DNA of 64,000 nucleotides from Candidatus Gastranaerophilales bacterium (GTDB taxonomy: Bacteria > Cyanobacteriota > Vampirovibrionia > Gastranaerophilales > Gastranaerophilaceae). The stretch is taken from assembly GCA_944326585.1 (NCBI GenBank), contig CALVEN010000002.1:62001-126000 (forward strand), given 5' to 3'. This document shows positions 30,922-60,463 of the stretch, piece by piece. Positions within the stretch are counted from its first letter, which is position 1. Each line of letters begins with the position of its first letter. The translations under genes were made by a program, and so were the position numbers. The notes under the pieces are model-generated. The model was not told where the DNA came from. It was given only the letters and a program-made list of their open reading frames with translations, and did no database searches.

Positions 30922-31992
30922 TTACCACGGGTAATCGTCTTTTATTTTCCAGCCGTCTAGCATTATTTTTGCCGCGCAGCAAAAGCCATATCCATTTTTG
31001 GAACAGTCCCTGTTTATATACTCATAACTGTTGGAGGCACAGTAACTCATAACAAGACCTTTAGAAAAATCCGTTTTGAAATAAAAAATATCTTTTCCCA
31101 TAGTATTTGGTCCGTCTGCTCCGTTCAAATCAACCCAAACTTCGGGAGAAGTTCTATACTCACGACCGTCCTCGGGGTTGTCCGGGTCAATATACTTCAT
31201 TATATTTATAAAATAAGAAGTCTTATCAGATGTTGTGAAATATATACGTCCGTAATTCAACTGAGTCAAAACGCTTATAGTTACAGTACTATTATTAGCA
31301 AACTTAAAAGGTGTACATTGTTTCGGCAAATCGCTCTCATACGGGCAAACAAGATCCTTGGACACAGCAGGCGACTTAAAATACGGTAAAATATATAAAT
31401 TAAAGAATTGTTCTGTTTTTTCAGGAGATACAGCCCCTGAAAAAACATTGTATACCCCGTCAGCGTACAAAAGCTTAGTCATATTACCAAGGGTTGAATA
31501 AACTTTTTGCAATTTTGAAACCGTAATTTTTTTCTGATAATTCGTTATAAGCGTCGGAATTGTCATTGCTGCCACAATACCGATAATGGCAAGGGTGATA
31601 AGCACCTCGGCGAGGGTAAAGGCAGCACGTTTTGCGTGAGTAAAGTGAGTGAGGTGAGTAGAGTGAGGGGTGTGGCTTCTGTGAGCCTCATTCACTAATC
31701 TGTCATCCTGAACTCGTTTCAGGATCACTGATTTATAATTCATCATATTAGAATTATAATTTGTTTCGGGGGTTGTGTCAATTCTTTTTGTATCTTGTAG
31801 GTCGGATTTACTAATCCGACAGTAAGTTTTTCTGTCGGCTTGGTAAAGCCGACCTACATTTCTGTTACTTCTTAGTGCCTTAGTGCCATAGTAACTTAGT
31901 AACTTTACTAAACCAATACCACCGAAACCCTTGTCCTGTCTACTTAGGAGAGTCGCCCCCCCCCCGAGATTCCCGAACTCATTATTTCCCAT
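30922..31992 (-). CDS. Prepilin-like protein L1, poly-G tract in the ON frame
   Basis: Of 356 residues, the first ~124 are an unusual leader. It starts at the ATG at 31992 (AGGAGA site and a -35/-10 promoter upstream), runs through a G10 tract (31956-31965), then through translated dispersed repeats. The prepilin motif KRAAF-TLAEVLITLAIIGIVAAM follows. The mature part is a pilin-like domain with several Cys and a W-x-D-x-NG-DGPN-x-G-x-D segment. With ten G the frame is open from ATG to pilin; nine G would give a stop after about a dozen codons. A perfect TTGACA-17-TATAAT promoter at 31753-31781 could alternatively start a leaderless message at the ATG at 31746. Confidence 0.75.
   Translation of the reverse strand: MGNNEFGNLGGGATLLSRQDKGFGGIGLVKLLSYYGTKALRSNRNVGRLYQADRKTYCRISKSDLQDTKRIDTTPETNYNSNMMNYKSVILKRVQDDRLVNEAHRSHTPHSTHLTHFTHAKRAAFTLAEVLITLAIIGIVAAMTIPTLITNYQKKITVSKLQKVYSTLGNMTKLLYADGVYNVFSGAVSPEKTEQFFNLYILPYFKSPAVSKDLVCPYESDLPKQCTPFKFANNSTVTISVLTQLNYGRIYFTTSDKTSYFINIMKYIDPDNPEDGREYRTSPEVWVDLNGADGPNTMGKDIFYFKTDFSKGLVMSYCASNSYEYINRDCSKNGYGFCCAAKIMLDGWKIKDDYPW
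31753..31781 (-). promoter_or_regulatory. Consensus promoter inside the L1 leader
   Basis: On the minus strand TTGACA (31776-31781), a 17-bp spacer and TATAAT (31753-31758) lie 6 nt before an in-frame ATGATG at 31746. If used, it yields a leaderless mRNA that bypasses the G tract and keeps a 41-residue leader. Confidence 0.6.
31797..31857. repeat. Dispersed GTAGGTCGG paired palindrome within L1
   Basis: A double-hairpin copy of the element at 26103-26163. It is translated in the L1 leader. Confidence 0.85.
31862..31965. repeat. Shared leader repeat ending in the poly-C/G tract
   Basis: About 100 bp (CTTAGTGCCTTAGTGCCATAG... to GGAGAGTCG and the C run on the plus strand) are almost identical to 60344-60445 in prepilin L3, in the same orientation relative to the pilin gene. 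Confidence 0.88.
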
Positions 31993-37104: not shown

Positions 37105-37133
37105 TTGACAAAACATTAAAAATCATCTTTAAT
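37105..37133 (+). promoter_or_regulatory. Prepilin L2 promoter
   Basis: TTGACA (37105-37110), 17 bp and TTTAAT (37128-37133) are followed by AAAGGAG and the ATG at 37155. Confidence 0.65.
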
Positions 37134-37154
37134 AAAGGGAAAAGGAGAATTAAT

Positions 37155-37917
37155 ATGTTTAAAAAGGTTATACAAAAAGCGGTTCAAATGATCGCCCCCC
37201 CCCCCGAGATGCCCGCTTCATAAGGGTTTCACGCTTGCCGAGATTTTGATTACCCTGGGCATTATTGGAATAGTGGCAGCAGTGACTATCCCGACGCTTG
37301 TAACAAAATATCAGGAAAAACAAACTGTCACAAGGTTTAAATGGATTTATTCAACTTTAGCAAATGCTTTCACAATGGCTGTTGCGGAAAACGGTGACCC
37401 GCAGACATGGGATTTGAATACCCCTGAAGATTTAGCAAAAATTCTGTCTAAATACATGCGGGTTTCAGAAAAATGTTATTATAAAAAAGGCTGTATCCCG
37501 TCTGATGTCAAACTGGTTGCCTTAACAGGAGAACCACGTTACTCAAATTTAGGGACCACTAAAGGTTACGTTAAAGAAAAATTTAACAATGGAATTGCCC
37601 TTTTTTATTCCAGCGTGCATAAAGGCTGCAATTATTCCTATATTGAGGCTGAAACCGGAAATCAAATTAATGTGGAAAATGATTGCGGTTCGCTTTATGC
37701 TTTCATATCAATGAATCGTACAAACAAATACGGACTTGACCATTTTGGTTTTGTTGTTACCCCTAAAGGAATTTTCCCGTCCTACCACAATTGGAGTGAC
37801 AGCTATATAAAAAGTAACTGCAATAAAAGGGAACAAAATACGACGCTTGGTACCAACGGTTGCACCTGCGGGGAATGGATAAGACGCTGGGGTAATGCCG
37901 ACTACTGGTATGATTAG
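37155..37917 (+). CDS. Prepilin-like protein L2, poly-C tract in an OFF frame
   Basis: Promoter, AAAGGAG site and ATG (37155) start a short leader (MFKKVIQKAVQMIAPPP), which reaches a C11 tract at 37195-37205. In the frame as given, translation stops at TAA seven codons later. Deleting one C (or adding two) joins the leader to HKGFTLAEILITLGIIGIVAAV and the full 220-residue pilin domain that ends at 37917. No ATG, GTG or TTG precedes GFTLAE in the pilin frame, because a TGA blocks it at 37187. The mature protein could therefore only be made after a frame change. The leader here is short and has no dispersed repeats. Confidence 0.8.
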
Positions 37918-59270: not shown

Positions 59271-60463
59271 TCAAAGTTGATTACGTTCAAGTTTCGTAAT
59301 CATAGCACCTGTATCCAGCCCGCCCTCTTCAGGATACATACACCCGCCGCCGTAATACTTGAACTTATTACCGTCCGAACGTATAAGAAAAGAAAATAAA
59401 TCATGTCCCCATTTATTTGGACCTTTTTGACCGTTTATATCAACGGCGAGTAAGGAAGGATATTCAGAATAAAGAATAATAATTGTCCCGTCCGAAAGTA
59501 CATATACAGTTCTGTCATTTAAGATAGCATTTTTCTTAAAATTTACACATCCTCTGGACGCATAATCACCATAATTCGCATACCCGTCAGGAACTTCAGC
59601 ATCAGGATAGTTTGCGTTTGCAACAGTATCCATCCCTTCATATTCAGGTATACAGCCCCTTTCAAACGCTTTGCCATCACAAATTTTGCTAACTTTGAAT
59701 AACGTCCAAAATTTATCTGACAACTCAGCACAACCGGAAATCACCGGAAAGGAATTATCCACGGAATAATAGCAATTCGGGAAGTAACCTAATTGACTTT
59801 GCGCATTCAATAATGCCTCATTAAGCATGGCATAAGTTTTTTTAAACTGATTGTTTAAAACTTTTTGCTTGTAATTGCTTACCAACGTCGGAATTGTCAT
59901 GGCAGCTACTATACCGATTATGGCGAGAGTTATCAAAACCTCTGCCAAAGTGAAAGCGGCTTTCTTGGAAGATACCAAGTTACTAAGGCAGTAAGGCACT
60001 AAGAGTTTTTTAGAGTGAGTGGAGTGAGTAAGGTGAGGTTTGTGGTTACCGCGAGCTTCGCTCAAAGGGCTTACCCCCACCCCTTGAGGGCGGAGGTTGA
60101 ATTTCTTAGTGAGCCTTGCGAACTTAGAAATTCGGGGGCGAGGTTGTGTTTTTTGGGATCCTTCGGCTATCGCCTCAGGATGACATGATACTTCCGTCAT
60201 CCCGGACACGTTCCGGGATCTTTTTTTATTTAGATCCCGCAATAAATGCGGGATGACGTTTATAGGTTGACCAATGTCAAGTATGTTGTCCGGACTCAGG
60301 CAGTTCAAAATGACATGTTGTAGGTCGGGTTTACTAATCCGACTGTTACTTCTTAGTGCCTTAGTGCCATAGTATCTTAGTAACTTTACTAAACCAATAC
60401 CGCCAAAACTCTTGCCCTGTCTACTTAGGAGAGTCGCCCCCCCCCGTTATTCAAACTAGTCAT
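59271..60463 (-). CDS. Prepilin-like protein L3, poly-G tract in an OFF frame
   Basis: A promoter and AAAGGAG precede the ATG at 60463. The leader (MTSLNN) enters a G9 tract (60437-60445) and stops four codons later. One added G opens a frame of about 150 residues through the shared repeat, a TAGGTCGG half-palindrome and the double CATCCCG palindrome, into SSKKAAFTLAEVLITLAIIGIVAAM and a pilin domain ending in GGGCMYPEEGG. The pilin frame itself is intact to 59271. The layout is the same as L1, where the tract is ten and the frame open. Homopolymer sequencing error is the alternative for OFF. Confidence 0.75.
60195..60258. repeat. Dispersed CATCCCG double palindrome in L3
   Basis: Two hairpins (CCCGGA/TCCGGG and CCCGC/GCGGG) share outer CGTCATCCCG arms. 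It is the inverted copy of 44243-44309 and is translated in the L3 leader. Confidence 0.88.
60320..60445. repeat. Half GTAGGTCGG repeat and shared leader repeat with the poly-C/G tract
   Basis: A single GTAGGTCGGGTTTACTAATCC hairpin arm is followed by ~100 bp (60344-60445) nearly identical to 31862-31965 of L1, ending at the C9 run. Confidence 0.88.

Follow-up and report, generated by a model that had tools for sequence, protein, structure and literature searches.

Probable multi-locus slipped-strand phase variation of type IV pilins with G/C runs in their leaders in a Gastranaerophilales genome

The contingency loci of Campylobacter jejuni belong to genes of varied function, and in the gonococcus the main source of variation in the pilin itself is gene conversion. 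In C. jejuni NCTC11168, 29 polyG/polyC contingency loci have at least 7 repeats (PMC4965091); the bacterium analysed here resembles that organism in combining a small genome with many G/C runs inside reading frames. With the simple-repeat phase variation of Neisseria (PMC5084427, PMC5953494), the proposed system shares run-length switching and an association with surface- or pilus-related genes. For the G-tracts of the sortase-dependent pilus of Bifidobacterium breve, replication slippage has been measured by deep sequencing (PMC9187656), and the features in common are a gut commensal as the host, an intragenic G run, and a pilus that requires a suitable run length. Open-access literature on phase variation in Gastranaerophilales/Melainabacteria yielded nothing relevant; since the literature covered was open-access only, this missing description is no proof of novelty.

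The locus considered here, L2, is found in a stretch of 64,000 nucleotides (the window; C2:62001-126000) of an assembly of 1,703,243 bases in 16 contigs from a gut bacterium related to the cyanobacteria (Candidatus Gastranaerophilales). In the rest of the genome, the stretches around runs and pilins were examined. In all probability, L2 is one of about 40 type IV pilin genes that undergo slipped-strand phase variation and are mostly OFF by default.

Anatomy of L2 and the other runs in the window

The main features of L2 are a short reading frame that contains a run of 11 C residues and, downstream of it, a pilin body (Table 1). The frame opened by ATG 37155 is closed by TAA 37221-37223 and the pilin lies in another frame, so that L2 needs a frame change to make its pilin, as the original prediction stated. 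The pilin frame, which reads ...SPPPPRCPLHKGFTLAEILITLGIIG... and ends in TAG, is closed on its upstream side by the expected TGA, which is located at 37189-37191 instead of 37187-37189. The prediction also held that no ATG, GTG, or TTG is found between the run and GFTLAE, and this is the case: the first candidate is TTG 37246, past the cleavage site and within the hydrophobic (transmembrane) helix. An initiation site 3' of the run was therefore rejected. Removal of one C does fuse the leader to the cleavage site, although the leader as originally quoted omitted the residues RCPLH; at C10, the predicted product starts with MFKKVIQKAVQMIAPPPRCPLHK, followed directly by GFTLAEILITLGIIGIVAAVTIP. 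The fused leader displays the class III signal layout that had been ascribed to it, with a positively charged leader, a G/F cleavage site, Glu at position +5, and a hydrophobic helix. L2 carries an above-chance homopolymer in the 5' part of its reading frame, as do phase-variable genes, and this frame is opened by one run length and closed by the others.

Table 1. Features of the three tract-bearing pilin loci (positions in the window)
Feature	Position	Strand	Remarks
L2 candidate promoter (TTGACA, 17 nt, TTTAAT)	37105-37133	+	Picked by eye, fails a stricter promoter scan; suggestion only
L2 Shine-Dalgarno (SD) sequence, AGGAG	37143-37147	+	7 nt ahead of the ATG; sibling loci likewise have SD-supported starts
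L2 start codon and short OFF-frame ORF	37155-37223	+	MFKKVIQKAVQMIAPPPEMPAS and stop, as assembled
L2 C11 tract	37195-37205	+	Proposed switch, ON at C10
L2 pilin body from GFTLAE	37225-37917	+	230 codons and TAG (37915-37917); PF07963 at 28.9 bits (over the cut-off, genome context), TIGR02532 over the cut-off, homologues
L2 expected cleavage site	Between G 37225-37227 and F 37228
Terminator-like hairpin 3' of L2	38084-38110	+
L1 G10 tract	31956-31965	-	ATG 31990-31992; ON as assembled
L1 pilin ORF	30922-31992	-	356 aa, long leader; N_methyl motif 31561-31632
TCTCCT just 3' of L1 tract	31946-31951	-	Complementary to Shine-Dalgarno
L3 G9 tract	60437-60445	-	ATG 60461-60463; OFF, one base short
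L3 pilin gene with leader	59271-60463	-	N_methyl motif 59895-59969
TCTCCT just 3' of L3 tract	60427-60432	-	Complementary to Shine-Dalgarno

When the L2 body is searched alone, its PF07963 score falls below the cut-off. The structure model of the L2 pilin consists of a helix (residues 4-56) and a beta region, with a mean pLDDT of only 71.9, and a structure search with this model gave no PDB match at E <= 0.001.

The window contains six 9-mer run matches (three runs) versus 0.09 expected, and none of 100 shuffled sequences had six or more. All three runs belong to pilins; the L1 run has the ON length, that of L2 is one base too long, and that of L3 one base too short. In L1, L3, and most G-type pilins, the cleavage site is preceded by a leader of 100 to 190 codons, much longer than ordinary prepilin leaders; these long leaders consist of dispersed repeats of the intergenic type, yet have stayed open. 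The C-type context (37185-37212; AGTCG-C9-GAG in the siblings of L2) is similar to the reverse complement of the G-type G9-CGACT (31946-31970), and judging from these contexts it looks as if the run module may be present in both orientations.

Runs, leaders, and pilins across the genome and its relatives

A profile search of the genome gave 68 matches to PF07963 at E <= 1, and the prepilin peptidase domain PF06750 was found at C3:8942-9193 (122.6 bits). Of the 43 G/C runs in the genome that reach or exceed 9 bases, 38 are followed within 567 nt by a co-oriented pilin motif. Three of the remaining five belong to leader modules truncated at the end of a contig, one belongs to an orphan leader (C1:393302), and the last, a G9 run at C8:8630, is unrelated to pilins. 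On the coding strand, the pilin-linked runs consist of G in 34 cases and of C in 4, L2 included. Contigs C5, C7, C10, and C13 (G000) end within pilin or leader repeats, so that switched pilins are probably more numerous than counted here. In one pilin (L079, in the C7:38677 region), the cleavage motif is present twice (VAFTLAEGATHVDMSDNIRRVAFTLAEVLITL), perhaps through duplication of the leader-body junction.

The leaders between run and pilin are open in a single frame. Among those of at least 60 nt, 30 of 33 have no stops in the pilin frame, and 3,700 leader codons contain 13 stops in this frame versus 344 and 324 in the other two (counts uncorrected for kinship among leaders). With the leaders open in the pilin frame, translation has to enter 5' of the run, and SD-bearing starts, assigned by the SD sequence and a preference for ATG, are indeed found 6 to 13 codons ahead of most runs. 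The state of the run could be assigned for 128 loci with an assigned start, which come from this genome, 13 relatives, and a few records that lack a genome assignment. Both wrong frames have a stop within 12 codons after the run in 89% of these loci, versus 53% in shuffled sequence, while the ON frame has none in that interval. The first stop comes at a median of 3 codons in the ON-1 frame and 5 codons in the ON+1 frame, and CTCCTAAGTAG in the main leader class places one stop in each wrong frame.

Related genes differ in run length. The leader class of L2 (similar to M-KKV--KAVQIVAPPP) is represented in this genome by C9, C9, C10, and C11 runs, and the ON length is C10 in all four; the C10 member has no in-frame ATG and would start at a TTG. 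The original interpretation of the L2 run as a length switch is thus supported by its three siblings, by their common ON length, by some 35 G-type pilins, and by relatives in the genus and family. On sequence grounds, the L2 run is likely to vary in length within the population. Two near-identical paralogues in the relative G006 carry G10 and G12 (flank identity of 95% upstream and 98% downstream). A second pair, C7:43780 and C7:51316 in the present genome, shares 97% identity across 449 nt and is gapped at the run alone; one member is in frame via an interrupted run and the other is OFF. The closest pilin bodies to that of L2 in the same genome (66 to 73% identity) follow a C-type C9 leader (C1:239951), a G-type G9 leader (C7:38303), and a closed G12 leader (C1:406186). 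Because L2-like bodies are found after such different leaders and runs, leaders and bodies appear to be exchangeable.

Where both members of a pair are OFF in the assembly, dN/dS over the full-length pilin bodies is 0.11 to 0.26. These low values suggest that OFF pilins are probably expressed at times. For L2 and its paralogues, the values are 0.12 and 0.22, which are rough because synonymous divergence is high.

Among the 128 loci, 18 are ON, 93 are one base short, and 17 are one base long (chi-square of 89 versus equal thirds, with shared descent ignored). The bias toward one base short is present with a usual length of 9 and an ON length of 10, and likewise in G050, with a usual length of 10 and an ON length of 11. 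This excess is more regular than expected from free drift and needs a preferred run length or another mechanism. A preferred length one below ON offers a simple account, under which most genes would be OFF and a single insertion away from ON.

The proposed switch and alternative explanations

In the proposed switch, each pilin gene would consist of an SD sequence and a start codon of its own, a short initial part of the leader, 8 to 12 G residues (or C, as in L2), the rest of the leader, and the pilin. Replication slippage would alter the run by one base per event. One length modulo 3 (C10 in L2) would join the leader in frame to K-G/FTLAE and allow the pilin to be made, and at other lengths translation would mostly end within a few codons. 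At any moment, most genes would be OFF but one slip short of ON, and the population would therefore sample varied pilin combinations. We infer that run lengths change in the population as a result of slippage and that the benefit lies in adhesion or in escape from phages or the immune system. An absence of mismatch repair was rejected as a source of slippage, as MutS1 is found in this genome (and, overall, 76 of 79 genomes have it above the cut-off); any extra slippage is therefore without an obvious cause.

An element that follows the G runs might add a layer of regulation. CTCC is found within 40 nt after the run in 69 of 114 G-run loci, compared with 3% of later windows, and it is absent from the C-type class of L2. 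It falls in all three codon phases (21/29/19), so the protein is not the reason for its retention. Beyond the core, the flanks of CTCC match the SD sequence of their own gene at 2.31 bases versus 1.57 in permuted pairs (p ~1e-4); a looser whole-region test of SD and CTCC gave a weaker result (p 0.04, and 0.15 within genomes). An example of such covariation is L007, which has GGAGGTTAA with TTAACCTCC. Folding of the mRNA from the SD sequence to the run gave no excess stability over mononucleotide shuffles (z ~ -0.15), so the case for an SD complement comes from motif enrichment and covariation. Masking of the SD sequence is our guess at the role of CTCC. It is doubtful that the run does more than switch by slippage, with the one-short default and the SD-covarying CTCC acting as a conserved device to couple run length to translation (through SD pairing or programmed shifting) and to give a low or regulated basal level of pilin on top of genetic switching.

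The regularity of the one-short state bears also on an explanation without genetic switching, in which the gene is held out of frame and ribosomal frameshifting or RNA polymerase slippage provides a fixed low level of pilin. The one-short loci are in exactly the register that would be restored by ribosomes shifting by -1 or by RNA polymerase adding a base, and the SD-complementary sequence after most G runs could form an RNA structure around the run. However, L2 and 16 other loci exceed the ON length by one base, and 18 need no shift; as L2 is long and most loci are short, no single direction of shift serves all of them, and ribosomal slippage is not needed. In addition, related leaders in G006 carry G10, G12, and G13, and the early stop that closes each wrong frame is more in keeping with tight than with leaky switching. 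We consider programmed shifting unlikely.

The same excess could be produced by a systematic one-base undercall. L2 would then truly be C10 and always on, and its C11 in the window would stem from faulty sequencing or assembly. Errors are common in runs of this length, the named relatives are metagenome assemblies, and the consensus of this fragmented 16-contig assembly may miscall a run by one base. However, L2 is called long rather than short, lengths of 8, 9, 10, 11, and 12 are called in this same assembly, and the pattern is repeated in different assemblies. Early stops in both wrong frames would also serve no purpose unless these frames actually arose. A miscalled run is a very unlikely explanation of L2. 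Decay of L2 and the other out-of-frame genes into pseudogenes of an overgrown, repeat-rich family would accommodate the 29 of 35 callable tract-pilins that are out of frame in this genome, the 3 stop-closed leaders, and the orphan leader, but is scarcely credible given the full-length out-of-frame bodies (more than ~218 aa in nine of ten loci), their dN/dS values, and the persistence of open leaders of up to ~190 codons.

Distribution and comparison with known systems

Slipped-strand switching of pilins appears to be a design of the whole family. The median number of 9-base G/C matches (overlapping 9-mers, not runs) is 103 per genome in 57 genomes of the family versus 3 in 22 genomes of the order's other families, and within the 57 genomes the number of 9-mer matches correlates with the number of pilins (Spearman 0.68, with pilin counts of 90 standing for at least 90). 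Three genomes, G020 (from another family), G049, and G070, have about 90 pilin motifs or more with few or no G/C runs; pilin expansion is therefore separable from switching. Neither the C-type nor the G-type leader anchors had a match in scans of viral contigs.

The host belongs to a gut lineage without a known pathogen role, and its 1.7-Mb genome would contain about 40 separately switched pilins. Gene finders are likely to call many such pilins truncated or to overlook them, and metagenomic run lengths could offer a direct readout of the pili that these uncultured bacteria display.

Nearly all runs of at least 9 bases serve one family here, the pilins, in contrast to the varied functions of the C. 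jejuni loci. Every pilin gene has its own run, whereas the gonococcal pilin relies mainly on gene conversion. The B. breve system comprises Gram-positive sortase pili, with 1 or 2 clusters per genome, while the present one comprises type IV pilins encoded by about 40 genes; unlike the B. breve sortase-pilus G-tracts, the run lies within the prepilin leader (PMC9187656). The slipped-strand mechanism is already known, and what would be new is its scale, the host group, and the position of the runs inside prepilin leaders.
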